DNA of 64,000 nucleotides from Epilithonimonas zeae (lineage in GTDB: Bacteria > Bacteroidota > Bacteroidia > Flavobacteriales > Weeksellaceae): positions 558,001 to 622,000 of the forward strand of contig NZ_CP075338.1 of NCBI RefSeq assembly GCF_023278365.1, read 5' to 3'. The position numbers were made by a program, and so were the translations under genes. Positions 7,993 to 33,857 of the stretch are shown piece by piece. The notes below the pieces were generated by a model. The model ran no database searches. It had not been told where the DNA came from and saw only the letters and a program-made list of their open reading frames with translations. Numbering within the stretch: the first letter of the stretch is position 1; the number at the start of each line of letters is the position of its first letter.

Positions 7993-8036
7993 CAAATGTA
8001 TGATTGATAAAGTTGATAGAAATTAATCTAGTTTAA
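7993..8036 (-). promoter_or_regulatory. Class II Crp-like site and -7 element of the 7108-7929 hydrolase gene
   Basis: On the minus strand TTAAACTAGATTAA (8036-8023) lies exactly 36 nt (first base to first base) before TACATTTG (8000-7993), a match to the Bacteroidota -7 consensus TAnnTTTG. The same dyad and spacing occur at 17856-17899 and 22325-22368. Confidence 0.65.
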
Positions 8037-8067
8037 TTTCGCACATTTTGTTGAATATTTTTTATTG

Positions 8068-8149
8068 GGGCAGCTGTTTCCGCCTTCCGCTCCCAATCTT
8101 TTCACTCCGCTGCGCTGCGCAAAAAGGATTTCCGCTCAAGTCGGGCTGC
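8068..8149. repeat. Intergenic repeat family A, copy 2 (inverted)
   Basis: Reads GGGCAGCTG...CCGCCTTCCGCTCCC to GGATTTCCGCTCAAGTCGGGCTGC, the reverse complement of the copy at 5629-5709. It lies between the DsbA-like stop and the hydrolase promoter. Confidence 0.85.
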
Positions 8150-8245
8150 GTGAGATTCGCTGTTAAAAGAACTTAAGAGTACTTTTATAAGTTTAGTATG
8201 AACTTACAATAACTTAAGTGTAAAAAACTTTGTGCCTTTTGTAGT

Positions 8246-8764
8246 TTACCCAACCGTATTCTCCCGTATCAGCTGAAGCAAATCCATCGCACTTCCATTG
8301 AATTTATTTCCGTTAACGAAAAAAGAAGGCGTTCCGTTTACTCCGCTTACAATTCCGCTTTCAAAATCCGAATCTACTTTTTCTTCCAGTTCGGTTTTCT
8401 GTATATCTTCTTTAAATTGAGAAATATTTAAGCCTATTTTTTCTGCAAGTTCAAACAAGAATAGTTCATTCAGAGATCCCTGGTTTTCGTAGATCGCATC
8501 GTGCATTTCCCAGAATTTTCCCTGAAGATTGGCGGCTTCAGCTGCGATTGCGGCAGGTCTTGCATATTGATGCATTTCCGACAAAGGAAAATTCCTGAAA
8601 ACAAATTTTACCTGACTTCCGAATTCTTTCATTAATTCTTTCAAAACAGGATAAGCGGCTCCGCAATACGGACACTGATAATCGCCGTATTCTACAATCA
8701 CAAGGTCGGCATTGTCGTTACCTTGGGCGTGGTCAGTTGTGCTGACTGATGGTTTTAGTGACAT
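8246..8764 (-). CDS. Cytoplasmic DsbA-family thioredoxin-fold protein
   Basis: 172 aa without a signal peptide. The active site is C31-P-Y-C34 (DYQCPYCGAAYP), followed by the helical DsbA insert (ARPAAIAAEAANLQGKFWEMHDAIYENQ) and the cis-Pro segment GVNGTPSFFVNG. This is the Bacteroidota DsbA/FrnE-like layout. Lack of a leader suggests disulfide isomerase or reductase work in the cytoplasm. It is the last gene of the bicupin-DUF1275-peroxiredoxin operon, starting 2 nt after the peroxiredoxin stop, and could recycle or partner that enzyme. Confidence 0.9.
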   Translation of the reverse strand: MSLKPSVSTTDHAQGNDNADLVIVEYGDYQCPYCGAAYPVLKELMKEFGSQVKFVFRNFPLSEMHQYARPAAIAAEAANLQGKFWEMHDAIYENQGSLNELFLFELAEKIGLNISQFKEDIQKTELEEKVDSDFESGIVSGVNGTPSFFVNGNKFNGSAMDLLQLIRENTVG

Positions 8765-8766
8765 AA

Positions 8767-9228
8767 TTATTTTGTGTTAAGATTTTCCAAAGCTTCTAAT
8801 ATTCCGTCTGCGCCGGGATTGATGGCGGTAGGAGACAGGTAGCTCCATTCGATGATGCCATCTTTGTTAATGACGAATAATGCGCGTTTGCATTCTCCTT
8901 CCTCATCATCGTAAACGCCGTATTTTTTTGCTGTTTCTCCTTTCGCTTCAAAGTCAGCCAACAATGGGAAATGTAAGTTTCTGGATTGTGAAAAAGCAAG
9001 ATGACACCATTTGCTGTCCACAGAGATTCCAAAGAGTTCTGCGTCATATTTATGGAAGAACTTCAAAGTTTCGTTGTACAAAGCCATCTGGTCGCTGCAA
9101 ACCGGGCTCCAGTCTGCGGGATAAAATGCTAGGATTACATTTTTTCCTTTAAATTCAGATAAAGTTATTTTCTGATCGGGCGTCGCAAACAATGTAAAAT
9201 CGGGAGCAACAGTGCCTTTTTGTAACAT
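8767..9228 (-). CDS. Peroxiredoxin (AhpC/TSA, BCP-like)
   Basis: 153 aa. The peroxidatic cysteine is Cys44 in the variant PADWSPVCSDQM; the family norm is PxxxTxxC, and here Ser replaces Thr. Further Cys residues (KWCHLAF, EGECKRALF) are candidate resolving residues. The thioredoxin-fold motifs APDFTL, GKNVILAFYPADW and the late ADGILEAL helix are present. It reduces hydrogen peroxide and organic peroxides in the cytoplasm. It lies 5 nt from DUF1275 and 2 nt from the DsbA-like gene, so it belongs to one operon controlled from the bicupin promoter. Confidence 0.92.
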   Translation of the reverse strand: MLQKGTVAPDFTLFATPDQKITLSEFKGKNVILAFYPADWSPVCSDQMALYNETLKFFHKYDAELFGISVDSKWCHLAFSQSRNLHFPLLADFEAKGETAKKYGVYDDEEGECKRALFVINKDGIIEWSYLSPTAINPGADGILEALENLNTK

Positions 9229-9233
9229 AATAT

Positions 9234-9926
9234 TTAGTTTTTGGGTGTTATTGAATTGAAAATTAATCCTCTACAAGTTAGCAATAAAACTGCAGGTAAA
9301 AGCAAAATCCAGTTTTTCCATATACTTAATAAGAAGGGAGCTGTCACAGCACCTGACAAAAATCCCATCCACAAAAGCAAGAGATAGATTGCATTTTCCT
9401 TAGCCTCGTTCTTCTCATTTTCATCATTACTCATCGTGAATATTGCCATATTTTTAGCAAGGCTGTTCAATGTACCGGTTACAAAATCTGTATTCACTTT
9501 CAGGTTTCCAACAGTCGTTACAATCGTATTCATCATTCCCATTGCAAAACCGATGATGGCAATCGAAGGAATCACAGGAATTTGACGGTAATGATTAATA
9601 AAAGTATAAAGCATCAAAATTCCCGAAACAATATAAAAAGCAATCGTTTTAATGCTGCATTTCTTCCATAATGAAAAACAGGTTCCTGCATAAATTCCCA
9701 TCAAAAAACTTCCAATTACCGTAACTGATGTGATGATAACTCCATATTTTCCACTGGAAAAAGCCGCTCCCAATTGCGTGGTGTTTCCACTCATAAAGGA
9801 AACATAGGTTTTCCATTTGATCAATCCCGTTGCATCGATATATCCTGCGATGAATGCTAAAAAGATGGCCAATTTCTCCTGTACTTTGATTTCTTTGGAA
9901 GACAGAAGAGATTTTTCCGCAATCAA
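9234..9926 (-). CDS. DUF1275 (YoaK-type) membrane protein
   Basis: 230 aa with about six hydrophobic segments. The N-terminal AFIAGYIDATGLI and FMSGNTTQLG motifs are diagnostic for DUF1275. The first possible start after the upstream stop is a TTG at 9924-9926, 5 nt downstream of the bicupin stop codon; no ATG in this frame precedes the first membrane helix, so a TTG start with translational coupling is likely. The function of the family is not established; it is often near stress or cofactor genes. Confidence 0.88.
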   Translation of the reverse strand: MIAEKSLLSSKEIKVQEKLAIFLAFIAGYIDATGLIKWKTYVSFMSGNTTQLGAAFSSGKYGVIITSVTVIGSFLMGIYAGTCFSLWKKCSIKTIAFYIVSGILMLYTFINHYRQIPVIPSIAIIGFAMGMMNTIVTTVGNLKVNTDFVTGTLNSLAKNMAIFTMSNDENEKNEAKENAIYLLLLWMGFLSGAVTAPFLLSIWKNWILLLPAVLLLTCRGLIFNSITPKN

Positions 9927-9931
9927 AACCG

Positions 9932-10978
9932 TTATTTTTCAGGTTGAATAAATACTTTTTTCGAAGGGAATTTTTCAATTTCACCTTCCTTTAAACCAAA
10001 ATTCGTTATGACAACATCTTTTGGATTTCCGGCCAGCCATTCGCTTAGATCAATGGATTCATAAGTTCCGCTGTTGAATCCAATCAATACTTTGCAGACC
10101 TTATCGCCTGTATTTTTGATGTAATGTCCGGCTCCCATCGGAACATAACCTACATCTCCCGCATTAAACTGTTCGGTAACAATCGCTCCTTCCGCTAAGA
10201 AAACCGACATCTCGGCCTGTCCGGAAATAAAATACTGCCATTCATCCGCATTCGGATGCCAGTGCATTTCTCTTAAAGCGCCCGGTTGAAGTTCCAAAAT
10301 AGAACCAGCCATTGTTTTGCTGATAGGAAATTCTTTACTTGTTACCAATCTCTGCAAACCACCTCCGGGAATGATTCTCGGTTGCTGGGAATGCAGTGGA
10401 TAACGGTGAAGATTGGTCAGTTCTATATCAGATTCTTCAGGTCTTGCTGTGGCCACAAATGACATTTCGTCCGGAACAATTCCTGCTGCGAAATAGGCTT
10501 CTTTCTGTGGTAACGCTGCCACTTCTTCAAGGGTTAATCCTAAGTTCTGAGCGGCAATTTCTGGTGGTACACTGGATACAAAATCTGTAACGCTGAATGT
10601 GTGGTCTTCAGAAAAATTACCGTTATCAAAGATCAGAATGAAATGACATTCTTCCGTTCCTGTCGCCTGGATCGAGTGGCCGTACCCTTTTGGGAAATAC
10701 CATACATCTCCCGGCTCAAAATTATCGGTATAGCTTTTTCCGTCCGGATGAATAATAGTGGTACGAACCGTTCCCGAAATCACATACGCCCATTCTGCGG
10801 CATTGGCGTGCCAGTGCAATTCTCTCATACTTCCTGGCTGCAGTCTCATAGAAACTCCGGCAATACCTATTGATGCAGGAAAATCTTTTACAGAAGCACC
10901 TCTTGTAGTTCCTCCGTCATTAGTACGTGGGTTTTGTTTTTCTAACTCGTATTTGAAGCTTAAAGTTGAAGTATTCAT
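9932..10978 (-). CDS. Bicupin, oxalate-decarboxylase-like
   Basis: 348 aa with two cupin domains. The first metal site is LHWHANAAEWAYV with the matching PKGYGHSIQATG; the second is MHWHPNADEWQYF with PMGAGHYIKNTG. The HxH...E...H pattern in both halves matches Mn-dependent OxdC-type bicupins. It has no signal peptide. A catalytic Glu on the N-terminal lid cannot be confirmed by eye, so it may be a different oxidase or decarboxylase. It is the first gene of a four-gene operon with DUF1275, peroxiredoxin and DsbA-like, under the direct-repeat promoter at 11020-11087. Confidence 0.87.
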   Translation of the reverse strand: MNTSTLSFKYELEKQNPRTNDGGTTRGASVKDFPASIGIAGVSMRLQPGSMRELHWHANAAEWAYVISGTVRTTIIHPDGKSYTDNFEPGDVWYFPKGYGHSIQATGTEECHFILIFDNGNFSEDHTFSVTDFVSSVPPEIAAQNLGLTLEEVAALPQKEAYFAAGIVPDEMSFVATARPEESDIELTNLHRYPLHSQQPRIIPGGGLQRLVTSKEFPISKTMAGSILELQPGALREMHWHPNADEWQYFISGQAEMSVFLAEGAIVTEQFNAGDVGYVPMGAGHYIKNTGDKVCKVLIGFNSGTYESIDLSEWLAGNPKDVVITNFGLKEGEIEKFPSKKVFIQPEK

Positions 10979-11019
10979 CGTATTATTTTTAGTGATTATC
11001 TCTTGTTCTTAATTCTATG

Positions 11020-11087
11020 GTAAAGCTACTTCCGAATCTGGCTTTTTTCAGTTTCTATTCGGTGAATAGGCAAAATCAGTCGTTGAG
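11020..11087 (-). promoter_or_regulatory. Direct-repeat operator and promoter block of the bicupin operon
   Basis: On the minus strand CTCAACGA (11087-11080) and TTCACCGA (11066-11059) are spaced by 13 nt. The block TAGCTTTAC (11028-11020) follows at the same distance as in the promoters at 12017-12084 and 17740-17807. The repeat geometry resembles LytTR response-regulator sites. Confidence 0.6.
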
Positions 11088-11120
11088 TTTTATGATATAA
11101 AAGATGATGATTTTTTTTCA

Positions 11121-11209
11121 GCTCCGTAGGAGCATTCTGTTAATAGAAAGATATATTAATTATGACGAGTTCCGTAGGAACGACCTGATAATTATTGGTT
11201 CACAGGTCG
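11121..11209. repeat. Tandem GTAGGA palindromes in the 443-nt gap 10979-11421
   Basis: GCTCCGTAGGAGC (11121-11133) and GTTCCGTAGGAAC (11169-11181) are perfect short palindromes. The second is followed by CGACCTG (11181-11187) and its inverted partner CAGGTCG (11203-11209). This resembles the CCGTAGGA intergenic repeats scattered in flavobacterial genomes. Apart from the bicupin promoter, I see no gene in the rest of this gap. Confidence 0.7.
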
Positions 11210-11421
11210 CTTTTACAGAGCTTTAATGTATCTTTATATGTTTATCTATTAATAGTTATTTTAATCTGAACAATTTATTTTAGATTAAAGTAAAATACAT
11301 TTTTCAAACAAGTTACAGGAAACAAAACACAAAGTCGTTTGGTTACAAAACAGTTGTTTTTAAACCAAAAAAAATCACTGGCTGAACCCAATGATTTTAA
11401 TTACTATATAAAATGTTGATT

Positions 11422-11979
11422 TTAAAAAGGCTGATTGTATTGGCCTGTCAAAGCTTTGTTCTCGATACTTTTTGCAAAATTAGGTGTTTCTTCGTGGTTG
11501 TGAGCATCAGAGGCAGCTTGTCTTGAAGCTGCGGCATCTGCAAGATTAATATTGTGCTCTTTCAAATATTCGAACATTTCGGGAGTTGCGGTTGCGTGAA
11601 TTTCGTTGGTGTACAAAGTCGTGTTGTCATCAATTTTTGTCGCTTTCAGTTCCCATAAAACCTGAACTTTTGTTCTTCCGTTTTTCGTAATAGAATCAGA
11701 AACAGATAACATTCTGCAATAATCCGGGCGATACACTGTGGCTACATAATGCTGAACCATCAAAGCATCTCCGATTGTTTCAACATTTAACGAAACTGGT
11801 TCGCCGTCAAAAGTAGTAGAAATAGCGGCTCCGATGTGCTGGGTGGAGCATCTTTGATATTCGGCATCGGGTAAGTTTAATAACCAATCTGCGATGTTAA
11901 CTTTTTCGAATGGTGCATTGATAATAGCGGTTACACTTGAGTGAGACAGTGCGTTTTCTGGTGTTTGTAGAATTTCCAT
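11422..11979 (-). CDS. Unknown 185-aa protein, possibly SRPBCC-like
   Basis: I do not recognise this with certainty. It is soluble, with no signal peptide or membrane segment. The opening SSVTAIINAPFEKVNIADWLLNLP followed by alternating strands and a helix around PEMFEYLKEHN is reminiscent of START/SRPBCC ligand-binding proteins. The C-terminus is Ala/Asn-rich and looks disordered (AAASRQAASDAHNHEE). It is a single gene with its own promoter (12017-12084) that shares the LytTR-like repeats of the bicupin operon and dps, so it is likely coexpressed with stress genes. Confidence 0.75.
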   Translation of the reverse strand: MEILQTPENALSHSSVTAIINAPFEKVNIADWLLNLPDAEYQRCSTQHIGAAISTTFDGEPVSLNVETIGDALMVQHYVATVYRPDYCRMLSVSDSITKNGRTKVQVLWELKATKIDDNTTLYTNEIHATATPEMFEYLKEHNINLADAAASRQAASDAHNHEETPNFAKSIENKALTGQYNQPF

Positions 11980-12016
11980 AATGTTTTGGTTTTAATTGTT
12001 TGTATTAATTGATGAT

Positions 12017-12084
12017 GTAAAGCTACAGGCAACTTAATGGAAAATCAATGGGTGTTCGATGAACGGGCGAAATGTATCGTTGAA
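12017..12084 (-). promoter_or_regulatory. Direct-repeat operator and promoter block of the 11422-11979 gene
   Basis: Minus-strand TTCAACGA (12084-12077), 13-nt gap, TTCATCGA (12063-12056), then TAGCTTTAC (12025-12017). The spacing between elements is identical to that at the bicupin and dps promoters. Confidence 0.6.
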
Positions 12085-12363: not shown

Positions 12364-12385
12364 TTCTGAAATTGGTTTAAACATA

Positions 12386-14018: not shown

Positions 14019-14030
14019 TATATTTTATAT

Positions 14031-17855: not shown

Positions 17856-17899
17856 TTAAACTAGTTAAATGTGCAGCATTTCTAACCATCATAAATTTG
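17856..17899 (+). promoter_or_regulatory. Class II Crp-like site and -7 element of the quinone-detoxification operon
   Basis: TTAAACTAGTTAAA (17856-17869; arms TTAAAC/GTTAAA, 6-2-6) begins 36 nt before TAAATTTG (17892-17899). A centre at about -41.5 is expected for class II activation. A near-identical copy lies before the pirin gene. Confidence 0.7.
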
Positions 17900-17926: not shown

Positions 17927-18859
17927 ATGGAAAATAGAATATTAGGGCTGCACCATATCACAGCGATTGCAGACAACGCAAAAAGAAACTTAGATTTTTA
18001 TACTCAGGTTTTAGGAGTAAGACTGGTAAAGAAAACCGTAAACTTTGACGATCCGGGAACCTATCATTTTTATTTCGGAAACGAAGAAGGAACTCCGGGA
18101 ACGATCTTAACGTTCTTTCCTTGGGAAGGAATTGGTAAAGGAACCAACGGTTCAGGTTTGGCAACGCACATCGGATATTCTGTTCCAAAAGGAAGCTTAG
18201 AATTTTGGAAAAACAGATTGCAGCAGTTTAATGTAAACGTTGAAGAAGGAGAAATTTTCGGTGAAAAACTGATTTCATTCCAAGACCCGGACGGTTTACA
18301 ATTACAATTTATCGAATCTTCTACACCAGATGACAGAAAAGTCTGGACAACCGATGATATTAAAGACGAAAATGCTTTGAAAGGTTTCCATAACATCACT
18401 TTAACCTTGAAAAAAGCTGATCCAACGATTAAAGTTTTAACGGATATTTTCGGATACGATTTACAAAAACAGGAAGGTGAAAGATACAGATTTGCAACCG
18501 ATGCCATTGAAACTGCAAATCTTGTCGATATTATTGAAAACGATAAAATTCAGGCTGGAAGAAATGCGGGAGGAACCAATCACCACGTAGCTTTCAGAGT
18601 AAAAGATGACAATATTTTAATGGAATTCCGTGAAAAAGTAATGTCTGCAGGATTGAATATTACCCCAAAAATTGACAGAGATTATTTCTACTCATTGTAT
18701 TTCCGTGAACCGGGCGGTGTTTTATTCGAAATCGCAACCGATAATCCTGGATTCACTGTAGATGAACCGTTAAATGAATTGGGAAACAACTTAAAACTTC
18801 CAAAACAGCACGAACCTTTACGTTCAAAAATAGAAGAAGTGTTGCCGAAGTTATCATAG
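17927..18859 (+). CDS. Ring-cleaving dioxygenase, tandem VOC domains (MhqA/MhqO-like)
   Basis: 310 aa with two glyoxalase/VOC modules. The N-terminal module opens LGLHHITAIADNAKRNLDFYTQVLG; the C-terminal module has HHVAFRVKDD and the metal Glu in FREPGGVLFEIATDNPGF. The His residues of each half and that Glu form the Fe(II) site in the family. Bacillus homologues (MhqA/MhqE/MhqO) degrade hydroquinone or catechol-type adducts. It is the first gene of the operon, followed by GNAT, a second VOC protein and an esterase. The exact substrate is unknown. Confidence 0.9.
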   Translation: MENRILGLHHITAIADNAKRNLDFYTQVLGVRLVKKTVNFDDPGTYHFYFGNEEGTPGTILTFFPWEGIGKGTNGSGLATHIGYSVPKGSLEFWKNRLQQFNVNVEEGEIFGEKLISFQDPDGLQLQFIESSTPDDRKVWTTDDIKDENALKGFHNITLTLKKADPTIKVLTDIFGYDLQKQEGERYRFATDAIETANLVDIIENDKIQAGRNAGGTNHHVAFRVKDDNILMEFREKVMSAGLNITPKIDRDYFYSLYFREPGGVLFEIATDNPGFTVDEPLNELGNNLKLPKQHEPLRSKIEEVLPKLS

Positions 18860-18892
18860 GTCATTCATTATCATTAATTAACAGAGTAATTT

Positions 18893-18941
18893 AGCAATAA
18901 GCAATAAGCAATAAGCAATAAGCAATAAGCAATAAGCAATA
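18893..18941 (+). repeat. Seven tandem copies of AGCAATA directly before a start codon
   Basis: Seven perfect 7-nt units fill 18893-18941, ending 5 nt before the ATG at 18947. It is in the 88-nt untranslated gap between the VOC and GNAT genes. No partial or diverged units were seen. Confidence 0.97.
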
Positions 18942-18946
18942 ATATT

Positions 18947-19243
18947 ATGGAAACAACAAAAGTAGTTTTAGAAAACGCAAGAGGAGAAGTTCAGCTTTTC
19001 TCAGACGATAAAAAGGCAGGTAAAATGGATATTTCGGTGATTAAAGATAAATTAACTGTTTATCACACCGAGGTTGATGACGAATATGCAGGAAATGGTT
19101 TTGCGAAATTATTATTAAATCAATTGGTTTCTTATGCCAGAGAAAATGATTTGAAAATCGTTCCGCTTTGTCCGTACGTTCACGCGCAATTCAAACGTCA
19201 TCCGGAAGAATACAACGATGTCTGGTTTAAAGAAGAAGCATAA
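18947..19243 (+). CDS. Small GNAT-type acetyltransferase (YjdJ-like, DUF4442/GCN5 C-terminal type)
   Basis: 98 aa. The core is VDDEYAGNGFAKLLLNQLVSYARENDLKIVPLCPYVHAQFKRHPEEY. The G-N-G-x-A acetyl-CoA loop and the conserved CPY...F..HPEY ending are typical of the minimal N-acetyltransferase family (Pfam Acetyltransf_CG-like). It lies inside the quinone-detoxification operon. The role is unknown. Its start is preceded by seven AGCAATA repeats, which may influence translation or mRNA structure. Confidence 0.9.
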   Translation: METTKVVLENARGEVQLFSDDKKAGKMDISVIKDKLTVYHTEVDDEYAGNGFAKLLLNQLVSYARENDLKIVPLCPYVHAQFKRHPEEYNDVWFKEEA

Positions 19244-19299
19244 AATCTGAAGATCAAACACTGAAAGCCATTAACAATCAACAAATACCATCAACTAAA

Positions 19300-20253
19300 A
19301 TGTCACTCATCACAGGACTTCATCACGTTACCGCTATCACAGGCGATACACAGGAAAATATAGATTTTTACACCGGAGTTTTAGGCCTTCGATTGGTAAA
19401 AACAACCGTTAATTTTGATTATTCTGAGGTTTATCATTTGTATTTCGGGGACGAGTTCGGAACGCCGGGAACTATTATGACAACTTTCCCTTATGGAAAA
19501 GGCTTAATCAACGGAAGACACGGCAAGGGAATGCTGAATACGACTGCTTTCTCGGTTTCGATGGATGCTTTGGATTATTGGACGAACCGTTTGGAACAGT
19601 TTAATATTCCTTTTAAACAGCCTCAGCAAAGATTTTCGGGCGAAGTTTTTATTTATCTGGAAGATTTTGACGGATTGGGTTTGGAGCTGGTTTTTAATGA
19701 GAAGGATGATAGAAAAGGTTATAACAATGGATTTATTCCGAAAGATTTTGCCCTCAAAGGAATTCACCACGTAGAAATCTGGCTGGATGCTTACGAAAGA
19801 ACTGCAGCTTTGCTGACTACTCAAATGGATCATCAATTAATTGCAGAAAGTTCAGACCGATTCAGATTTGGAACTGAAGATAAACCGGGGAAATATATCG
19901 ATTTGCTATGCACACCGACTGCTCTGAAAGGTTTGGCAGGAAGAGGAACCGTTCATCACGTCGCTTTTGCCACTCCAAATGCGGAAACTCAGCTTGAAAT
20001 GATTGAAAAATTAAACCAATTCGGGTTGGAACATACCGAAGTGAAAGACAGAAAATATTTCACCTCTGTATATTTCAAGGAGCCGGGCGGAGTTTTATTT
20101 GAAATCGCCACTTCAGGACCAGGTTTCGATGTGGATGAAGAATTGGCATCTTTGGGCGAACATTTAAGTCTGCCGTCACAGTTTGAAAAGCAAAGAGAAC
20201 ATTTGGTTGAGGTTTTACCCCAATTTAATTATCCAACAGAAAAATACAGATAA
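19300..20253 (+). CDS. Second ring-cleaving VOC dioxygenase (MhqA/MhqO-like)
   Basis: 317 aa, the paralogue of the 17927 gene. N-terminal GLHHVTAITGDTQENIDFYTGVLGLRLVK, middle IHHVEIWLDAYERT, C-terminal HHVAFATPNAE, and metal Glu in FKEPGGVLFEIATSGPGF. It ends 2 nt before the downstream esterase start, giving the dioxygenase-esterase pairing seen in Bacillus mhq operons. It probably opens quinone- or catechol-like rings in the cytoplasm. Confidence 0.92.
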   Translation: MSLITGLHHVTAITGDTQENIDFYTGVLGLRLVKTTVNFDYSEVYHLYFGDEFGTPGTIMTTFPYGKGLINGRHGKGMLNTTAFSVSMDALDYWTNRLEQFNIPFKQPQQRFSGEVFIYLEDFDGLGLELVFNEKDDRKGYNNGFIPKDFALKGIHHVEIWLDAYERTAALLTTQMDHQLIAESSDRFRFGTEDKPGKYIDLLCTPTALKGLAGRGTVHHVAFATPNAETQLEMIEKLNQFGLEHTEVKDRKYFTSVYFKEPGGVLFEIATSGPGFDVDEELASLGEHLSLPSQFEKQREHLVEVLPQFNYPTEKYR

Positions 20254-20255
20254 AA

Positions 20256-20876
20256 ATGAGTCATATTTTAGATATAAAAACAGGAGGAAAATCATTGAAT
20301 GAAGCTGAAAAAGTTTTAATAATGATTCACGGAAGAGGCGGAAGTGCACAGGATATTTTGAGCCTGTCACAACATTTGAATGTAGGAGGTTATGCATTAT
20401 TGGCACCACAGGCTACGAACGGAACCTGGTATCCTTTTTCATTCATTGTGCCAACAGAACAAAATGAACCTTGGTTGTCCTCAGCAATAGAGACTATAGG
20501 AAAAACGGTTCAAACTGCTTTGGATGCAGGAATTAAGGCTGAAAATATTTACTTTTTCGGATTTTCACAGGGTGCGTGTTTGACATTGGAATTTTTAGCA
20601 AGAAATGCTCAGAAATTTGGTGGGGCGGTTGCTATCATCGGCGGAGTTATTGGTGAAAAAATCAATCGTGAAAATTACAAGGGCGATTTTGCACAGACTC
20701 CGATTTTCCTGGGAACGAGTAATCCTGATTTCCACGTTCCGGTAGAAAGAGTGTATGCAACTGCAAATATTTTGAAGGAAATGAATGCTGATGTTACCGA
20801 GAAAGTCTATGCCAACTTCGGACATTCCATCAATCAGGAGGAAATTGAATTGGCAAATTCTATTGTTTTTAAATGA
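20256..20876 (+). CDS. Phospholipase/carboxylesterase-family hydrolase (MhqD-like)
   Basis: 206 aa alpha/beta hydrolase. Oxyanion motif IHGRGGSAQDI, nucleophile elbow GFSQGACLTLEF, then SNPDFHVPVERV (acid) and FGHSINQEE (His). Size and motifs fit the Abhydrolase_2 group that includes MhqD. Starting 2 nt after the second dioxygenase strongly suggests cleavage of the ring-opening product. A large perfect hairpin follows at 20887-20943. Confidence 0.9.
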   Translation: MSHILDIKTGGKSLNEAEKVLIMIHGRGGSAQDILSLSQHLNVGGYALLAPQATNGTWYPFSFIVPTEQNEPWLSSAIETIGKTVQTALDAGIKAENIYFFGFSQGACLTLEFLARNAQKFGGAVAIIGGVIGEKINRENYKGDFAQTPIFLGTSNPDFHVPVERVYATANILKEMNADVTEKVYANFGHSINQEEIELANSIVFK

Positions 20877-20886
20877 TTTATTCTCT

Positions 20887-20943
20887 CGCAGATTTTTCTG
20901 ATTTAGCAGATTTCACTGATCTGCTAAATCAGAAAAATCTGCG
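20887..20943. repeat. Perfect 25-nt inverted repeat with 7-nt loop
   Basis: The left arm (20887-20911, CGCAGATTTTTCTGATTTAG...) and the right arm (20919-20943) are exactly complementary; the loop is TTCACTG. It lies 10 nt after the esterase stop and 45 nt before the cupin start. There is no T-tract after it, so an mRNA stabiliser or processing site is as likely as a terminator. Confidence 0.9.
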
Positions 20944-20987
20944 ATAATTTAAAATACTTTTAAACTCCAATAAAAATTAATTACATA

Positions 20988-21335
20988 ATGAAAATCACAA
21001 GAATATTCAGCGACGAAAACGGCGATTCTCACTTCGAAGACGTAGAAATTCCATTAATCAATCAAGGCGAAATTGGATTTTTGTCAGATGATATCAATGT
21101 CAAAAAATTGCAGTTCCGAAAAGTTTCTGCCGAGTATGATTACGATTTTCATCACGCTCCACAAAAGCAATATATTGTATTATTGGATGGCGGCGTAGAA
21201 ATTGAAACTTCGCTTGGAGAAATCAGACAGTTTCAAACGGGAGAAATTCTTTTGGTAGAAGATATTTCCGGTAAAGGCCACAAAACCAAAAACCTCGAAA
21301 AGAAGGAAAGAACTTCACTTTTTATTCATTTATAA
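20988..21335 (+). CDS. Small cupin-like protein
   Basis: 115 aa. A single small beta-barrel is suggested by FRKVSAEYDYDFHHAPQKQYIVLLDGGVEIETSLGEIRQFQTGEILLVEDISGKGHKTK. The HH...Y pair and the late GH resemble cupin metal positions, but the classical HxH is not intact. It is in the same operon orientation, 9 nt before the 103-aa gene. The function is unknown. Confidence 0.8.
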   Translation: MKITRIFSDENGDSHFEDVEIPLINQGEIGFLSDDINVKKLQFRKVSAEYDYDFHHAPQKQYIVLLDGGVEIETSLGEIRQFQTGEILLVEDISGKGHKTKNLEKKERTSLFIHL

Positions 21336-21344
21336 ATTGTAAAA

Positions 21345-21656
21345 ATGAAAACATTAAATTTTTTAGTGATTGGAAAAAATCAGGAAATTCTTGAAACTTT
21401 AAAAAGAATCATCGAAAATAACGACGGCTGGAAAGCGGAAATCCGAAGTGATGAAACTGTTTGTGGGGATTATATTAAAGAAAATCAGGTTGATATCGTT
21501 TTATTAAGTTCCGGTTTGGATGAGAAATTTGAAAATGACATCAAAGTTTTTTGTTCAGCTTTGGATAAAGATGTGAAAGTAATCGACCATTACGGTGGAG
21601 GAAGCGGGCTTCTGAAGAATGAAGTTTACACACTTTTTCCTAATTTGCAGCCGTAA
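21345..21656 (+). CDS. Receiver-like 103-aa protein of unknown function
   Basis: The beginning KTLNFLVIGKNQEILETLKRIIENN and the segment KENQVDIVLLSSGLDEKFENDIKVF look like a Rossmann/receiver fold. There is Ser-Ser where a phospho-acceptor Asp would be, and no DD acidic pair, so phosphorylation is unlikely. It sits between the cupin and Crp/Fnr genes with gaps of 9 nt each. I do not recognise a named family. Confidence 0.72.
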   Translation: MKTLNFLVIGKNQEILETLKRIIENNDGWKAEIRSDETVCGDYIKENQVDIVLLSSGLDEKFENDIKVFCSALDKDVKVIDHYGGGSGLLKNEVYTLFPNLQP

Positions 21657-21665: not shown

Positions 21666-22250
21666 ATGTTTCAAAATATCATCAAAAACATCTCGCGGTT
21701 TGTAACTTTAACTCCGGAAGAGGAAAAGATTTATGAAGATTTGCTCACGCTTCAGAAGTTTCCGAAGAAAACGCATCTTCTGCGTGAAGGAGAGATTTGC
21801 CAGTTCGAAGGTTTTATAAAAGAAGGTTGTGTGCGGACATATTATCTTGATGAAAATGGGTTTGAAGTGACGCTTCTGTTCGCTGTTGAAGACTGGTGGA
21901 TTACCGATATTGATTCTTTTAATAACAAAACACCTTCGAAGATTTTCATCGAAACGCTGGAAGATACAGAAATCTATATGCTGACTCCGGAAACGAAAGA
22001 AGAATTGTTGCAGAAAGTTCCGAAGTTCGAAAGAGCTTTCCGAATGATGATGCAGCGTTATGTGGTGACGCTTCAAAACCGCTTGGTTAATACGATTTCG
22101 CAACCTGCAACAGACCGTTATCTGGAGTTTATAAGAGTGTATCCTACAATTCCGCAGCGTGTAGCGCAGTATTATATTGCCTCTTATCTTGGGGTTTCTA
22201 AGGAATTTGTGAGTACGATTAGAAAGCGTTTAGCGAATAAGCAGAAATAA
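21666..22250 (+). CDS. Crp/Fnr-family transcription regulator
   Basis: 194 aa. The N-terminal cyclic-nucleotide-like beta-roll includes LLREGEICQFEGFIKEGCVRTYYLDENGFEVTLLF. The C-terminal HTH is short (IPQRVAQYYIASYLGVSKEFVSTIRKRL). It is in the last position of the detoxification operon, with a terminator at 22276-22308. It is the closest regulator to the TTAAACTAGTTAAA sites before this operon, the pirin gene and the 7108-7929 hydrolase, hence the likely activator. The effector ligand is unknown; the conserved cAMP-binding Arg pattern is not apparent. Confidence 0.92.
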   Translation: MFQNIIKNISRFVTLTPEEEKIYEDLLTLQKFPKKTHLLREGEICQFEGFIKEGCVRTYYLDENGFEVTLLFAVEDWWITDIDSFNNKTPSKIFIETLEDTEIYMLTPETKEELLQKVPKFERAFRMMMQRYVVTLQNRLVNTISQPATDRYLEFIRVYPTIPQRVAQYYIASYLGVSKEFVSTIRKRLANKQK

Positions 22251-22324: not shown

Positions 22325-22368
22325 TTAAACTAGTTAAATGTGCAGGAGTTTTCATCAGTTTAAATTTG
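22325..22368 (+). promoter_or_regulatory. Class II Crp-like site and -7 element of the pirin gene
   Basis: TTAAACTAGTTAAA (22325-22338) lies 36 nt before TAAATTTG (22361-22368). The stretch TTTATTAAACTAGTTAAATG is identical to that before the VOC operon. Confidence 0.7.
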
Positions 22369-22398: not shown

Positions 22399-23274
22399 AT
22401 GGACAGAAAAGATTTTTTAAAGAAAGGATTATTGGGAACAGGAATGTTTGTTGCATCCGCTTCATTAGGCAATACAATGAAAAATGAGATTGACGAAATC
22501 GAACCGTTAGAACCAATCGGATATAATCATTTACCAAATACGGATTCAAAAATCAAAGACAATTCGGTCTTTCACAAAGCAGATTCCAGAGGGAAAGCCG
22601 ACCACGGTTGGTTAGTCAGTAATCATACCTTCAGTTTTGCCAATTATCATAATCCGGAGAGAATGCATTTCGGAGTTTTAAGAGTTCTGAATGATGATAA
22701 AGTTGAGGCTGGAAGAGGTTTCGGAACACATCCACACGACAATATGGAAATCATCAGTATTCCATTGGAAGGTGATTTGGAGCATAAAGACAGTATGGGA
22801 AATTCTGCGATTATCAAGAGTGGAGACATTCAGGTAATGAGTGCAGGAACAGGAATTATGCACAGCGAGTTCAATAAAAATAATGACAGTCTGGTAAAGT
22901 TTCTTCAAATCTGGGTTTATCCAAACAAAAGAAATGTAACACCAAGATATGACCAGATTACTTTAGACAAAACGAAAAGTCAGAATCAATTCCAGCAAAT
23001 TCTTTCTCCAAATCCAGATGATGAAGGTGTTTGGATCCATCAGGACGCTTGGTTTCACTTAGGGAATTTTGAAAATAATATCGAAACCAATTATCAGATT
23101 AAGAAAAAAGGAAATGGTGTTTATGCATTTATTCTAAAAGGAAGCGCAGAAATTGAAGGTCAAAAACTGGAAAAAAGAGACGGTTTCGGAATCTGGGATA
23201 TTTCCGCTTTGAACATTAAATCGACTTCAGAAGATACAGAGATTTTGTTGATGGAAGTTCCGATGACGATGTGA
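22399..23274 (+). CDS. Pirin-family protein with Tat-like leader
   Basis: 291 aa, a bicupin of the pirin/YhaK type. Metal ligands appear in FGTHPHDNMEII (HxH) and MHSEFNKN, with the upstream signature HGWLVSNHTFSFANYHNPERMHFG. YhaK-like pirins can have quercetin 2,3-dioxygenase activity or act as redox sensors. Unusually, the N-terminus MDRKDFLKKGLLGTGMFVASASLG resembles a twin-arginine leader with RK instead of RR, so it may be exported or anchored. It shares its operator with the quinone-detoxification operon. Confidence 0.9.
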   Translation: MDRKDFLKKGLLGTGMFVASASLGNTMKNEIDEIEPLEPIGYNHLPNTDSKIKDNSVFHKADSRGKADHGWLVSNHTFSFANYHNPERMHFGVLRVLNDDKVEAGRGFGTHPHDNMEIISIPLEGDLEHKDSMGNSAIIKSGDIQVMSAGTGIMHSEFNKNNDSLVKFLQIWVYPNKRNVTPRYDQITLDKTKSQNQFQQILSPNPDDEGVWIHQDAWFHLGNFENNIETNYQIKKKGNGVYAFILKGSAEIEGQKLEKRDGFGIWDISALNIKSTSEDTEILLMEVPMTM

Positions 23275-28698: not shown

Positions 28699-29869
28699 TT
28701 ATATTTCTTTAAGAGAATTTCTATCTAAATAAGCACGCCAGACGATCACCAAAACTGCCAGCACACCAAATATAACTCCCACCCAAGGTGTTATGGATAT
28801 TCCATTTTGTGAAATGAAAAAACCACCAACAGATGTTCCTAATGAAACGCCCAAGTTTCCAAATGACGTTTGTATACTATTGGCAAATTCTTTGGCGTCT
28901 GGTGCTGCTGAGATCATATATCCAACACCTATAAGGAAACAAGGCCCATACATAATTCCCCAGAAAGCAGTAACCAAGGCCACATTTAGAAATGAATGAT
29001 CTGTGTATTGAAATGCAAAAGGCACGACAAATACACCTGCAATAAAAACCAGCGTCGTCCAGAACATATTCTTTCCTAGTAATTTACCCGCTACATAATT
29101 TGAAAGTACACCCATTGCACCGAATAACAGCAGTAAAAGGCTTATTTCTCGTTCGCTCATTCGTTTTTCTTTCCCCAAATAATCTGCAAAATAACTGTAG
29201 GAGCAAAACCAGGCAGTTATTAATAATAGATTCAGAAGTGTTCCTGAGATAAATCTTGGTCGAGTCAATATGGATAGTTGACTTCTAAACGAAGCTGGTC
29301 GTTCGTTGGGCATAGAAGGAAGATTTTTGAATATAATTAATATCGTAAGTAGTAGTATAAGTCCATGAATCACATAAGTAATCTGCCAGGAGTATAAGCT
29401 TGCTAAATAGGTGCTCACAGGGATAAGTGTAACCTGAGCAATCGCAATTCCTCCAATAATGATAGAAGTTAGGTGCATCTGATCTTTTTGAGAAGTTCCC
29501 TTTACAGCTGCAGCGATAGCCATAGAAAAAAAATGCGGGATGAAGTAGAGTAGGAAGTATTCTAAGGATCATCAAAATCCAGAACGGATGACTGAAGATG
29601 GAAAAGAAATTCGATATGAAAAATAATCCCATTGCCCACAGCATTATTTTTTTCTTATCAAATTTAGAAGCAAACAATACCGTGAAAGGTCCTGTAATGG
29701 CAATGAATAAAGCAAAAGCACTCAGAAGATATCCGGCGGTCGCAATATTGATATGGTAGTATTCTGCTATCTGTGGCAAGATAACAATGATCCCGAATTC
29801 TGTGCTGATAATCCCAACAACGCCTAAGCATCCTATGTAGGCTATCTTTTTATTTAAGTTTGTTTTCAT
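28699..29869 (-). pseudogene. MFS transporter interrupted by a frameshift
   Basis: Two overlapping minus-strand reading frames together form one 12-TM drug:H+ antiporter-type permease of about 390 aa. The N-terminal part is 29869 to about 29530 (MKTNLNKKIAYIGCLGVVG... to LRILPTLLHPAFF). The C-terminal part continues from about 29525 to 28699 (SMAIAAAVKGTSQKDQ...). The break is at eight T on the coding strand (forward A-run 29526-29533); seven would restore the frame. The promoter carries a TetR-type operator shared with the neighbouring TetR gene. It is either a true loss, a phase-variable tract or a sequencing indel. Confidence 0.85.
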
Positions 29870-29872
29870 AAT

Positions 29873-29886
29873 AAACTGAACGGTTT
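29873..29886. promoter_or_regulatory. TetR-type operator before the MFS gene
   Basis: AAACTGAACGGTTT, partial palindrome 4 nt from the MFS start codon. It differs in two central bases from AAACTGTTCGGTTT before the TetR gene. Confidence 0.7.
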
Positions 29887-29967
29887 AAAATAGGGTAAAA
29901 AAAATATATGGTTATCAATTAAAGTATTGCAAGTTGTAATACTTCTTAGATATTGAAGTATGTGTAC

Positions 29968-30549
29968 TTACTGACTGATAAACTGAATCATTAGATTGAT
30001 CATTGCTTCTACTTGCGCCTTATCTTTATATAAAACATAATTCTTAAGCAGGGTTGTAGATGAGCTTGCAAAAAAAGCGGCAGTAGTTTCTGCATTCAAT
30101 TCTTTTCTTAATAATTTCTGCTGTATACCACGCTGTAAAATAGCGAGATAAACCTGTTCAATTTTTTTCTCGTTTGCGACAAGCATCTGATTTATCTCTT
30201 TATCTACAAAGGCAATTTCAAAGATCATTCTTACGGCCAGACAAATTTTATTATCCTGAATACTTTGCTCCACCGAGAGTTTCAGGACTTTTATCAAATC
30301 TTCTAACGCATTGTTACCATTATCCTGAAGAAAAGCCTGATAATCTATGAGTCTTGACTTCTGATATTTGTCGAGGCATTTGAGCAACAGTTCTTTTTTA
30401 TCGCCATAGGTAGGATAAATACTGCTTCTGTTGATCTTCATATGGTTTTCAAGATCACTGAGTGATGTTACGTGATAGCCCTGTTCCCAGAACAGATTTA
30501 CTGCTACATCAAGTTTTTCTTCGTATTCAAATTCTTTTTTTCTTGCCAT
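29968..30549 (-). CDS. TetR/AcrR-family repressor
   Basis: 193 aa from the ATG at 30549 ([13 protein letters not shown]); the upstream in-frame ATG at 30567 leaves no room for the operator. [40 protein letters not shown]. The C-terminal ligand domain is AefR-like (EQGYHVT and IRGIQQ patterns). It is next to the MFS gene with matching operators before both, so it probably represses itself and the exporter. Confidence 0.92.
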
Positions 30550-30571
30550 AATGGTGCAAATATACAATTTT

Positions 30572-30585
30572 AAACTGTTCGGTTT
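30572..30585. promoter_or_regulatory. TetR-type operator before the TetR gene
   Basis: AAACTGTTCGGTTT, flanked by T and A (TAAAC...GTTTA), 23 nt upstream of the TetR ATG. Confidence 0.7.
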
Positions 30586-30899
30586 ATAATTTTTATTTAA
30601 ATAATATTGACTGTGCTATATTTATTTCCATAATTAATTACTGTTACTCTTTAGCCACTCAACTTTTTGTGATGATTGATGTTCTTTAATTAGAATGTTG
30701 TACTACAGCAACTTTCCAAAAAACAGATAGTTTGATGTATGGAGGTAATATTTTTGTGGGTTGTACCCTTTTGATATGGGAGATTGGGGATTAAATATTT
30801 AAAGATTACTTGAAAAAAATAAAGTATCTATTCGGGTACAATCGAATTGGAGTCCTTAGAAGAACAGCTATTTTTTATGTAATTTTGTTAAAATTGTAA
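30586..30899. other. AT-rich intergenic region with a possible -7 element
   Basis: No gene seen. TAATTTTG at 30880-30887 is a probable -7 element for the Crp/Fnr gene starting at 30900, which would then have a very short leader. Short inverted repeats (GTTG...CAAC near 30699, GGGTTGTACCC near 30758) are present. Confidence 0.5.
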
Positions 30900-31466
30900 A
30901 TGATCCAGAGCTTTTTCCAAAATTTTAATATATTCTCAGAACAGGAAATCAAACATTTATTAGATTGTTTTGAAATCAGGAATATGTCTAAAAATGATAT
31001 TTTCGTTCGAGAAGGTGAAAGTTGTAAGGAAATAGCTTTTATACAATCGGGAATATTTCGTTCTTACTACAATTCAGATGATGGTAAAGAAAGTACTTTC
31101 TGTTTCAGGTTTCCTAACGAGCTTTTAGCTTCGTATTCTTCATTTATATCAGGTCAACCCAGTGTAGAGACGATGCAGGCTATTTCAAATGCTGAACTTT
31201 TAATTTTAAAGAAATCTAAAATAGAAGAACTCGCTCAAAGCAATCAAAACTGGATAAAGTTTCTGAAAGTTATCGCAGAACAGGAATATCTTGAACTTGA
31301 AAAACGTTTTTTCCAGTTCCAGAGGGAAAATGCTGCGCAGCGTTATAAAAAATTAATAGAAAATCAGCCGGATTATGTGCAGAATATTCCTTTGCAATAT
31401 TTAGCCTCATATTTAGGTATTACTCAAAGGCATCTCAGCCGGATAAGAAAGGAAATCTCTTTTTAG
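30900..31466 (+). CDS. Crp/Fnr-family regulator
   Basis: 188 aa. The sensor beta-roll includes VREGESCKEIAFIQSGIFRSYYNSDDGKESTFCF. The compact C-terminal HTH is NIPLQYLASYLGITQRHLSRIRKEI. It ends just before the inferred promoter of the saccharopine-dehydrogenase-like gene; a dyad GACATTTGTC overlaps its stop codon at the class II position, so that gene is its likely target. Confidence 0.93.
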   Translation: MIQSFFQNFNIFSEQEIKHLLDCFEIRNMSKNDIFVREGESCKEIAFIQSGIFRSYYNSDDGKESTFCFRFPNELLASYSSFISGQPSVETMQAISNAELLILKKSKIEELAQSNQNWIKFLKVIAEQEYLELEKRFFQFQRENAAQRYKKLIENQPDYVQNIPLQYLASYLGITQRHLSRIRKEISF

Positions 31467-31507
31467 ACATTTGTCCTGTTGTAGCAATTGGCGACTCTAT
31501 AGTTTTG
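31464..31507 (+). promoter_or_regulatory. Class II Crp-like site and -7 element of the reductase operon
   Basis: TAGACATTTGTCCT (31464-31477; core dyad GACA-TT-TGTC) begins 36 nt before TAGTTTTG (31500-31507). The central CATTTG is shared with the sites at 33187 and 33814. Confidence 0.6.
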
Positions 31508-31518
31508 TAAAAAAAATT

Positions 31519-32545
31519 ATGGAATCAAACATCTTAATAGTCGGAGGAAACGGAATGGTCGGTAGAACTATTGCCCGTATTTTAAAAACAAGAAATCCTC
31601 ATTACAACATCTTTATCGGTGGCAGGAAAAAGGGTAAAACAGAAAATGATTTAATTATTGATGTTACAAAACCTCAGACATTTCAGGCTATTCTGGATAA
31701 AAAAATAAATGTAATCATTCTATCTGTTAACGACAAAGAAGACAATGTTCTAAGTTTTGCCATAAAAAATCAGATTGATTATATTGATATAACAAAACCT
31801 ACACCTGATTTGACAAAAGCCTATGGTTTGGCTAAAAAACAAAGCATTAACAGTAGAATAGTTTTCAGTTCCGGCTGGATGGGCGGCATTGTCGGAGGTT
31901 TAATTTCCTCATTTTCTATAAAAATGAAAGATATTCAGTCGGTTGAGCTTTTCGTATATTATTCTGTGAAAGACCTTGCCGGAGAAAGTTCTGCCCATTT
32001 TATGGCGGAAAATGTAGCGAAACCTTTTGTAAATTATAAAAACAACCAGCCTGTTTCCATTAAACATTTTTTGAATTCTGAAACGTTTGATTTTTCTTTC
32101 GGGATCGGGAAGAGGCAGGCTTACAATTTTGATGTTCCTGATTTATACATTTTAAATAAAATTGAAAATATTCCTGATGTAAGTGTTAAAATGACCTATA
32201 ATTCAAAGTTTATCACCTGGCTTTTAGGAGCTTTTCAGAAAATCAGATTGTATAATATTTTATCTTTAAAGGAAAGGAAAATGGTTTTTTGGATCCAGTG
32301 GAAATGGTGATCAATCGGTATTTGAAATCATTATAAAATCTAATAATCAATATAAAAAAATTAGCTTGCAGAGTCTGAAAGGACAGGCAGAATTAACTGC
32401 TTTGTCAGCTGTTTTGCATACCGAGCAACTTTTTAATAATGAGTATGAAAACAAGATTTATTTTAGTCATCAACTCTATCAAGGTTCAACTCTCTTAGAA
32501 TTGCTTAAATCCTATGAATCTATAAATATAAAAGTAGCTGAATGA
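31519..32545 (+). pseudogene. Saccharopine-dehydrogenase-like NAD(P)-binding protein, frameshifted
   Basis: The start at the ATG 31519 gives MESNILIVGGNGMVGRTIARIL, a Rossmann GxGxxG motif, and the body matches saccharopine-dehydrogenase NADP-binding-domain reductases. The frame runs into a stop at 32310, but the +2 frame continues without a break as FGSSGNGDQSVFEIII... to a TGA at 32543-32545 that overlaps the next ATG. The break is at six T (32285-32290); five would give a 341-aa protein. The neat ATGA overlap shows that the full-length frame is ancestral. Loss of function or a sequencing indel are both possible. Confidence 0.85.
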
Positions 32546-33120
32546 AAAAAATATTGATCGTCAATGGTCATCCAAATAAAGATTCATTCAATTTTGGAAT
32601 TACTGAATCTTACAAAGAAGGAGCTCTTAAATCCGGAGCTGAGGTAAGAGAAATTGTTATCGCAGACTTAAATTTCAATCCTAATCTTCAGTTTGGATAT
32701 CAGAAAAGAATGGAACTGGAACCTGATCTTGTTGAATCTTGGGAAAAAATTCTTTGGGCTGATCATCTGGTGTGGATTCATCCTGTTTGGTGGGGCGGTT
32801 TACCGGCGATTACAAAAGGATTTATTGATAGATTATTTTTACCAGGATTTGCCTTTAAGTACAGAGAAAATTCTGTTTGGTGGGATAAACTTTTAAAAGG
32901 TAAAACGGCACACATTATTACAACATTGGATCAGCCGGGATGGTATTACAGACTGTTTTATGGAAGACCGAGTGTGAATCAGCTCAGGAAATCGATCTTA
33001 CAATTTTGCGGGATAAAACCGGTGAAAGTTAGCTATATCGGAATTATAAAAACCTCTGATGAGAATCAACGGAAAATTTGGCTTGATAAGGTTAGATTAC
33101 TTGGAATTAAACAAAAATAA
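32542..33120 (+). CDS. NAD(P)H-dependent quinone reductase, flavodoxin-fold (KefF/MdaB type)
   Basis: 192 aa. FMN-binding loop VNGHPNKDSFNFGITESYK, then WADHLVWIHPVWWGGLPAITKGFIDR, the NAD(P)H quinone-reductase signature, and TTLDQPGWYYRLFYGRPS. It catalyses two-electron reduction of quinones in the cytoplasm. Its ATG overlaps the stop of the frameshifted reductase by 4 nt, implying translational coupling with the upstream gene, so the frameshift may lower its expression. Confidence 0.93.
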   Translation: MKKILIVNGHPNKDSFNFGITESYKEGALKSGAEVREIVIADLNFNPNLQFGYQKRMELEPDLVESWEKILWADHLVWIHPVWWGGLPAITKGFIDRLFLPGFAFKYRENSVWWDKLLKGKTAHIITTLDQPGWYYRLFYGRPSVNQLRKSILQFCGIKPVKVSYIGIIKTSDENQRKIWLDKVRLLGIKQK

Positions 33121-33186
33121 TTTAAATGTCAGTTCATAAGTCATAGAAAAGAATGAACTCATTTAAGGATTGTTAATCTACATTTT

Positions 33187-33230
33187 TTACCATTTGGTAA
33201 TTGATGTCTTTAAGCCGTTCAGTATCTTTA
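33187..33230 (+). promoter_or_regulatory. Class II Crp-like palindrome and -7 element of the 33235 Crp gene
   Basis: TTACCATTTGGTAA (33187-33200) has perfect 6-2-6 arms and begins 36 nt before TATCTTTA (33223-33230). This leaves only 4 nt to the ATG, so the mRNA may be leaderless or almost so. Confidence 0.7.
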
Positions 33231-33234
33231 TAGA

Positions 33235-33804
33235 ATGGAAGCGCTAATAAATCTTATTCTGCAATTTGGTGACCTGAATAAGCAACAAATCGAGTTTGTG
33301 GTAAGTAAGGTGGAAATGCTCGAATTGAAAAAAAACGATTACCTGTCCGAAGCTGGAAAGGTCCCGCGTTACGTGGCTTTCGTGTTGGAAGGTGTGTTCC
33401 GCTTTTGCTATTATAACAACAGGAGTGAAGAGATAACCAATTATTTTGTGGACGAAGGCAATTTTGTAGTCGACAACGGAAAGTTCGAATCGCAGATTGC
33501 CGCCTCAGAATATGTTCAGGCTGTTACAGATTGCAAAGTGCTGGTGTTCAATAAAAAAGATTGGGATGAAATTTCAGACACTATTGTAGGCTGGGAAATG
33601 ATGAAAGCAAAGATGGTGAAAAAATGCCTTACCCTCGCGATGGAGCGTCGCAGCCCGTTGGTTTCAGAAGATGCCACGACACGTTATCTCTCATTCATTG
33701 ATGCGTTTCCTAATCTTATCAACCGCATTCCGCTTTCCTATGTTGCCTCGTATCTTGGTGTTACCCAGCAATCGCTAAGTCGTATACGTCGTAATATCCG
33801 TTAA
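33235..33804 (+). CDS. Crp/Fnr-family regulator
   Basis: 189 aa. Sensor part: YLSEAGKVPRYVAFVLEGVFRFCYYNNRSEEITNYF. HTH: RIPLSYVASYLGVTQQSLSRIRRNI. The GC content of this gene and the next looks a little higher than that of its neighbours. The TTACCA-N2-TGGTAA palindrome occurs before this gene and, with one mismatch, before the adjacent SDR gene, so positive autoregulation together with SDR activation is the simplest reading. Confidence 0.93.
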   Translation: MEALINLILQFGDLNKQQIEFVVSKVEMLELKKNDYLSEAGKVPRYVAFVLEGVFRFCYYNNRSEEITNYFVDEGNFVVDNGKFESQIAASEYVQAVTDCKVLVFNKKDWDEISDTIVGWEMMKAKMVKKCLTLAMERRSPLVSEDATTRYLSFIDAFPNLINRIPLSYVASYLGVTQQSLSRIRRNIR

Positions 33805-33813
33805 CAATGCTTT

Positions 33814-33857
33814 TTACCATTTGCTAAATGTCTTTTTGTAAGAGAAGCCGAAATTTG
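33814..33857 (+). promoter_or_regulatory. Class II Crp-like site and -7 element of the SDR gene
   Basis: TTACCATTTGCTAA (33814-33827), 5 of 6 arm pairs intact, 36 nt before GAAATTTG (33850-33857). The spacing is the same as at 33187-33230. Confidence 0.65.

Follow-up and report, generated by a model that had tools for sequence, protein, structure and literature searches.

The closest described counterparts of the system studied here are the class II promoters of Escherichia coli, at which CRP or FNR, dimeric regulators of the cyclic nucleotide-binding (cNMP) fold, occupy a 14-bp dyad centred at -41.5. CRP, with the recognition helix RET..R, reads a GTGA half-site, and FNR a TTGAY half-site. 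CRP also holds the cAMP phosphate with an Arg-Ser pair, and FNR proper carries N-terminal iron-sulphur cysteines. Here we analyse six 14-bp dyads and three neighbouring Crp/Fnr genes, paralogues 1 to 3, in a stretch of 64,000 nucleotides (the window) from the Bacteroidota bacterium Epilithonimonas zeae (contig NZ_CP075338.1, positions 558,001 to 622,000, forward strand). The cNMP-fold regulator, the 14-bp dyad and, by inference, its centre at -41.5 are shared with E. coli, and so are two half-sites of the wider family, GTGA for RET..R and TTGAY for (P/Q/L)ET..R. In contrast to E. coli, the promoter is a Bacteroidota-type sigma-A promoter (NAnnTTTG), many helix-operator pairs are new, and the operator adjoins or overlaps the stop codon of its regulator.

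The most probable explanation, to which we give a probability of about 0.83, is that the dyads are operators of the adjacent Crp/Fnr regulator. The dimer would sit on the dyad, centred at -41.5, and help RNA polymerase in a class II manner at a weak sigma-A promoter with a -7 box NAnnTTTG. In this expanded family the promoter geometry would have been retained while the operator changed through a few residues of the recognition helix, and most paralogues would each regulate a single small unit of detoxification or oxidoreductase genes next to them. Class II activation by Crp/Fnr proteins is an established mechanism; here it would serve a large paralogue family whose private operators depend on the recognition helix, in a phylum where promoters are unusual. 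Statistics show the arrangement and the helix-operator relation; binding, activation, signals and transcription starts are inferred.

All three paralogues scored above the cut-off for the cNMP-binding domain (PF00027), and no Pfam helix-turn-helix (HTH) model matched them at 1e-3. The paralogue-1 profile aligned through the recognition helix to CRP (1hw5), and that of paralogue 3 to PDB entry 3dn7, a full-length homologue of paralogues 1 (E 2.2e-50) and 3 (1.8e-15) with the helix PEYLSE, whose name, cyclic nucleotide binding regulatory protein, gives no operator or function. In paralogue 1, for which alone these features were compared, QERSAW of CRP aligned with KPSKLY, lacking the cAMP-binding Arg-Ser, and residues 1-44, unlike the N-terminus of FNR proper, contained no cysteine. 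Correlations of the same kind between protein residues and operator letters are described for other families, namely MerR (PMC5045206), GntR (PMC4494728) and IclR (PMC8222616); the MerR study mentions a CRP/FNR precedent, and the passages available from these studies do not treat Bacteroidota Crp/Fnr proteins. A literature search that covered few subscription papers and could not match the slash form found nothing on Crp/Fnr operators at TAnnTTTG promoters, nor on a Crp/Fnr operator code in Bacteroidota, which is weak evidence of novelty.

A fixed distance between dyad and -7 box

A sequence-only reading of the window had placed six dyads exactly 36 nt ahead of a -7 box, and all six 14-mers were found at this distance. 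Since the offset had been set from the window alone, other Crp/Fnr loci offered a fair test. Crp-like open reading frames of 140-280 amino acids with a stop within the locus were reduced from 315 to 287 by identity of their last 120 residues; all genomes in the offset tests were of the same order, and coverage outside it comes from a set of 80 named paralogue-1 loci (best 80 of 547). A 14-bp dyad stood 36 nt before NAnnTTTG, just past the gene's own stop codon, in 72 of the 287 genes and at offset 37 in 18, against 2.29 on average, and never more than 10, at the other offsets. When genes were grouped at 45% identity by single linkage, 21 of 69 clusters had the dyad at 36 and 11 at 37 (others: mean 1.71, maximum 4). 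Set A, partly selected by similarity to the three window paralogues, contributed 34 of its 102 genes. The two later sets gave 18 of 93 genes against a mean of 0.59 at other offsets (set B, the top 30 or all cNMP matches from four genomes, minus genes already in the set) and 20 of 92 against 0.83 (set C, 100 places hand-picked among the matches listed). Five genomes scanned singly had 28, 38, 31, 26 and 30 cNMP-domain matches.

The same distance emerged when whole loci were scanned for TAnnTTTG and for 6-2-6 dyads pairing at 5 or all 6 positions: 112 Crp-centred loci, left from 117 after removal of overlaps, held 31 dyads at offset 36, 12 at 37 and 1 to 10 elsewhere (offsets 14-74). Loci fetched later, with earlier sequence masked, held 19 and 13, compared with a mean of 4.24 (sd 2.05, maximum 8). 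There was no excess in 400 kb of the source genome (21 at offset 36, mean 21.02), in regions chosen away from listed Crp genes only, so that other Crp genes may lie there. The enrichment was confined to the same-strand place after the regulator's stop, with 4, 2 and 1 genes at offset 36 in upstream, divergent and convergent places against backgrounds of 2.00, 1.29 and 0.95. The claim that each operator lies beside a Crp/Fnr gene is better restated as a usual layout, the regulator followed by the same-strand promoter of the next gene. In the source genome, 11 of 25 Crp/Fnr genes had such a post-stop match. Offset 37, which would centre the dyad at -42.5, was used by some helix types (for example L104, L116 and L119), and all four RET..R pairs had it.

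In Flavobacterium psychrophilum, TAnnTTTG spans -12 to -5 (PMC9723704), which would put the dyads at -48 to -35 with a centre at -41.5, the class II position. The proposed class II geometry of about -41.5 is supported by the published box position and by the independent offset test. The words Crp and Fnr are absent from the main text of that study. Alignment of 81 offset-36 promoters displayed T-rich DNA after the dyad and then NAnnTTTGY; the first T of the box was weakly kept (28% T), no TTTG was seen at -33, and the core letters of the box are not independent evidence because the promoters had been selected for it.

Paralogue 3 has in addition a putative self promoter. Counted from the ATG, its dyad lay at -48/-49 in 18 of 22 orthologue-like genes, and the predicted start falls on the A of the paralogue-3 ATG (33235), which predicts a leaderless mRNA. 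Leaderless transcripts make up 5.5% in F. psychrophilum (PMC9723704). As a conserved feature, the self promoter was seen in the paralogue-3 clade only. The self-promoter boxes of three loci (L042, L044 and L045) are TAACTTGC, TAAATTGC and TACCTTGC, which resemble the SM5 box TAnnTTGY described for F. psychrophilum (PMC9723704).

Operator letters and the recognition helix

Operators were compared with their regulators in 102 gene-operator pairs, a set shared by all the following analyses, which are not mutually independent. Operator similarity was 0.465 between proteins of less than 25% identity and climbed to 0.971 beyond 80%, a rise that shared ancestry by itself would produce. Once overall identity was controlled for, the HTH, with 22 of the 189 columns, supplied 12 of the 20 best (p 1.7e-8), and its mean partial correlation (0.079) exceeded that of all 145 non-overlapping windows (maximum 0.007). 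Pairs below 35% identity that agreed in four or more of 5 chosen helix residues had an operator similarity of 0.746; nearest neighbours judged by the rest of the protein reached 0.592, and distant pairs as a whole 0.552 (59 genes, effective number 29.7).

Prediction of operators from distant relatives singled out four of the 189 columns scored, all within the recognition helix: 180 (0.737 bits), 181 (0.438), 178 (0.082) and 184 (0.039), the remaining columns giving 0 bits or less. They align with E, T, S and R of the CRP recognition helix, E181, T182, S179 and R185 in the usual numbering. With R at residue 184, operator position 3 (arm-averaged) was G in 12 of 12 genes when residue 180 was S, A in 15 of 16 when it was Q, and G in 21.5 of 25 when it was E; E at both residues went with A in 18 of 18. 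RET..R paired with GTGA and PET/QET..R with TTGAY. At 50-60% identity and with overall identity equal, pairs with the same operator differed at 0.14 of the 4 helix residues (78 pairs) and pairs with different operators at 1.12 (43 pairs). The proposals of one operator type for each paralogue and of specificity that diverged at constant geometry draw support from this association, from the offset test and from the rarity of the operators described below.

The window and the paralogue-1 unit

The source genome is a single contig of 3.94 Mb with 36% G+C and 28 cNMP-domain matches. The features of the window that bear on the dyads are as follows.

7108..7929, minus strand: alpha/beta hydrolase (Pfam Abhydrolase_1), proposed target of paralogue 1
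8023..8036, minus strand: dyad TTAAACTAGATTAA, with -7 box TACATTTG at 8000-7993
17856..17869, plus strand: predicted operator TTAAACTAGTTAAA of paralogue 1, with -7 box TAAATTTG at 17892-17899
17927..21656, plus strand: operon (Pfam) with VOC dioxygenase-like (17927-18859), GNAT-like (18947-19243), VOC (19300-20253) and esterase (20256-20876) genes, then 20988-21335 and 21345-21656
21666..22250, plus strand: Crp/Fnr paralogue 1, helix SKEFVSTIRK, PF00027, at the end of the VOC-GNAT-VOC-esterase operon
22325..22338, plus strand: predicted operator TTAAACTAGTTAAA, with -7 box TAAATTTG at 22361-22368
22399..23274, plus strand: pirin family gene (Pfam Pirin), proposed target of paralogue 1
30900..31466, plus strand: Crp/Fnr paralogue 2, helix TQRHLSRIRK, PF00027
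31464..31477, plus strand: predicted operator TAGACATTTGTCCT, which includes the TAG stop codon of paralogue 2, with -7 box TAGTTTTG at 31500-31507
31519..32310, plus strand: NAD(P)-binding oxidoreductase-like gene (Sacchrp_dh_NADP just below the Pfam cut-off), beginning 53 nt downstream of GACA, proposed target of paralogue 2
32542..33120, plus strand: flavodoxin-fold NAD(P)H oxidoreductase (Pfam Flavodoxin_2), possibly one unit with the 31519 gene
33187..33200, plus strand: predicted operator TTACCATTTGGTAA, with box TATCTTTA (one mismatch) at 33223-33230, putative self promoter of paralogue 3
33235..33804, plus strand: Crp/Fnr paralogue 3, helix TQQSLSRIRR, PF00027
33814..33827, plus strand: predicted operator TTACCATTTGCTAA, with box GAAATTTG (one mismatch) at 33850-33857
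33884..34744, plus strand: short-chain dehydrogenase (Pfam adh_short), proposed target of paralogue 3

The sequence-only reading had grouped three promoters under the type TTAAAC-TA-GTTAAA; this holds for 17856 and 22325 but not for 8036, which carries TTAAACTAGATTAA and not TTAAACTAGTTAAA. Three dyads are imperfect: TTAAACTAGTTAAA has 5 of 6 positions paired, as has the 33814 dyad, and the 31464 dyad pairs, as written, at 4 of 6, with the core GACA-TT-TGTC and the TAG stop codon of paralogue 2 as its first three letters. Shuffling placed TTAAACTAGTTAAATGTGCA above chance (2 occurrences in the window and 0 in 100 shuffles), and the proposed genome scan gave each window operator two to four good sites. 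TTAAACTAGTTAAATG occurred without mismatch at exactly two places in the 3.94 Mb, both in the paralogue-1 cluster; at up to 2 mismatches its 4 matches fell below the 13 of the reversed control, so that only the exact matches are informative. GACAnnTGTCCT with NAnnTTTG at the fixed spacing had two perfect matches, each directly 3' of a Crp/Fnr gene, one after paralogue 2 and one after a gene with the helix TQRSLTR, and was at chance level with up to 2 mismatches (15 vs 15 reversed). The TTACCA pattern of paralogue 3 had four matches with one mismatch, two of them inside the window, and 10 with up to 2 mismatches against 1 for the reversed pattern. The third of the four precedes a 491-aa open frame; the fourth has no clear open frame of 60 aa or more within 300 nt.

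A fourth Crp/Fnr gene of the window (49137-49718, plus strand, helix TAESLSRLRK) is absent from the sequence-only reading. No dyad of at least 5 pairs lay 36 or 37 nt before a box past its stop; by eye, just a weak TTACCCATCGTCAA is seen there, 36 nt ahead of TAATTTTG.

For 47 downstream proteins, chosen from 89, Pfam gave 5 short-chain dehydrogenases, 3 small multidrug-resistance-type transporters, 3 DoxX proteins and, once or twice each, many further families. This spread indicates that the targets are varied, oxidoreductases being the most frequent.

Of the 80 paralogue-1 loci, 65 contained one or more sites of the broad pattern. The 130 sites stood before pirin (54), VOC1 (46), the hydrolase (7) and p103 (1), and 22 were other or unassigned. 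Some Chryseobacterium contigs carry two paralogue-1 copies (about 95% and 74% identity) about 50-190 kb apart, namely L338 with L366, L340 with L369 and L344 with L362.

The 8036 site is the least certain of the six. Among 14 close orthologues, from 13 same-genus genomes (L418-L430 and L432), it read by eye TTAAACTAGATTAA in 4, TTAAACTAGATGAA in 1, TTAACYTAGGTTAA in 4 and otherwise in 5; apart from the window's own copy, TTAAACTAGATTAA is the dyad of three same-genus orthologues, with a one-letter variant in a fourth. Another paralogue may own this promoter. A candidate is the PEY..E paralogue at G000:C1:3720165, with the half-site TTAAAC likewise present in its operator TTAAACCAGTTTAA, and two genomes (G003 and G019) keep an 8036-type site and have no close paralogue-1 gene. 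We regard such ownership as quite possible. Against it, in five Chryseobacterium loci (L342-L345 and L347) the paralogue-1 gene is flanked divergently by the hydrolase with the exact 8036 dyad, which is divergent from p115-p103-CRP1 in L401 and from the VOC1 operon in L348; in 11 of the 80 loci no more than 8 kb separates the hydrolase (89-94%) from a paralogue-1 gene. We lean, with modest assurance, towards paralogue 1 as the owner.

Alternative explanations and dyads at the stop codon

That the adjacent regulator binds the dyads as a repressor or anti-activator is improbable. Repressor operators can lie at -41, but they usually vary in position, and one fixed offset across many operator sequences fits contact between an activator and polymerase; a weak first box base and a missing -33 element are likewise what activator contact would give. 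Even less likely is binding by some other regulator nearby, a MarR or HxlR repressor, with the Crp/Fnr genes as bystanders. This explanation appeals to the paralogue-1 cluster, which shares ring-cleaving dioxygenase-like VOC genes and an esterase with the methylhydroquinone (mhq) clusters, and in Firmicutes mhq-like genes are under the MarR repressor MhqR. Here, however, the proposed regulator is a Crp/Fnr activator, and the esterase missed the MhqD family cut-off (1.6e-8, 34.5 bits vs 325), so that an electrophile or quinone signal for paralogue 1 is a guess. Among the adjoining genes there was no MarR-type regulator: the adjacent one has PF00027, and the gene divergent from 17927 is ferritin-like, on which grounds a MarR operator was rejected. 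Moreover, the operator letters track the Crp/Fnr helix residues, and the paralogue-1 sites recur in 65 of the 80 loci picked by that regulator. Least credible of all are terminator or attenuator stems in RNA, or chance AT-rich palindromes, for which the AT-rich genome and the many dyads directly past a stop codon could speak. The fixed box offset was repeated in held-out sets and there was no excess in the 400-kb control, which led to the rejection of chance or AT-rich palindromes, and the dyad letters depend on the helix.

Several observations weigh against operators of the adjacent Crp/Fnr regulator as the explanation. At the thresholds used, at least 197 of the 287 genes had no match, and some of the 102 gene-operator pairs must be chance. 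Fifteen of the 80 paralogue-1 loci lacked a site, namely L338, L375, L402 and all 12 from Sphingobacterium (L403-L408, L410-L414 and L416). Raw mutual information missed the helix (columns 172-187 ranked 27 to 188 of 189) and favoured variable columns; taken by operator position, helix columns came first only for positions 3 and 5; and at 30-40% identity the helix differences, 2.62 for same-operator and 2.54 for different-operator pairs, did not separate the two.

Dyad and regulator stop codon overlap in 33 matches. The stop forms operator letters 2-4 in 27 of them (19 TAA, 8 TGA); five others have TAG and one is of another kind. In the helix type of paralogue 2, TAG is immediately followed by (G)AC..TGTC in 17 of 19 genes. 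One of these 17 (L076) has a changed core, L061 has a shifted operator, and L153 has no such operator at its stop. It seems rather probable that Bacteroidota carry a large family of self-contained, movable cassettes, in each of which the 3' end or stop codon of the regulator (T-TAA, T-TGA or TAG) contributes to its operator, with a class II promoter and the target gene immediately after. Two to four residues of the helix, above all 180 and 181, would suffice to read the specificity, and the stop codon would be set by the DNA preference of the protein.

A fixed geometry with a readable relation between helix and operator would allow operators and targets to be assigned from sequence. The paralogues would form a natural mutant series for tests of protein-DNA recognition, and would offer many candidate orthogonal activators for a phylum with promoters unlike those of model bacteria. 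The stop-codon overlap would also explain simply how regulator, operator and target might travel as one, and, if the cassette reading is true, operators could be assigned from sequence for hundreds of orphan regulators.

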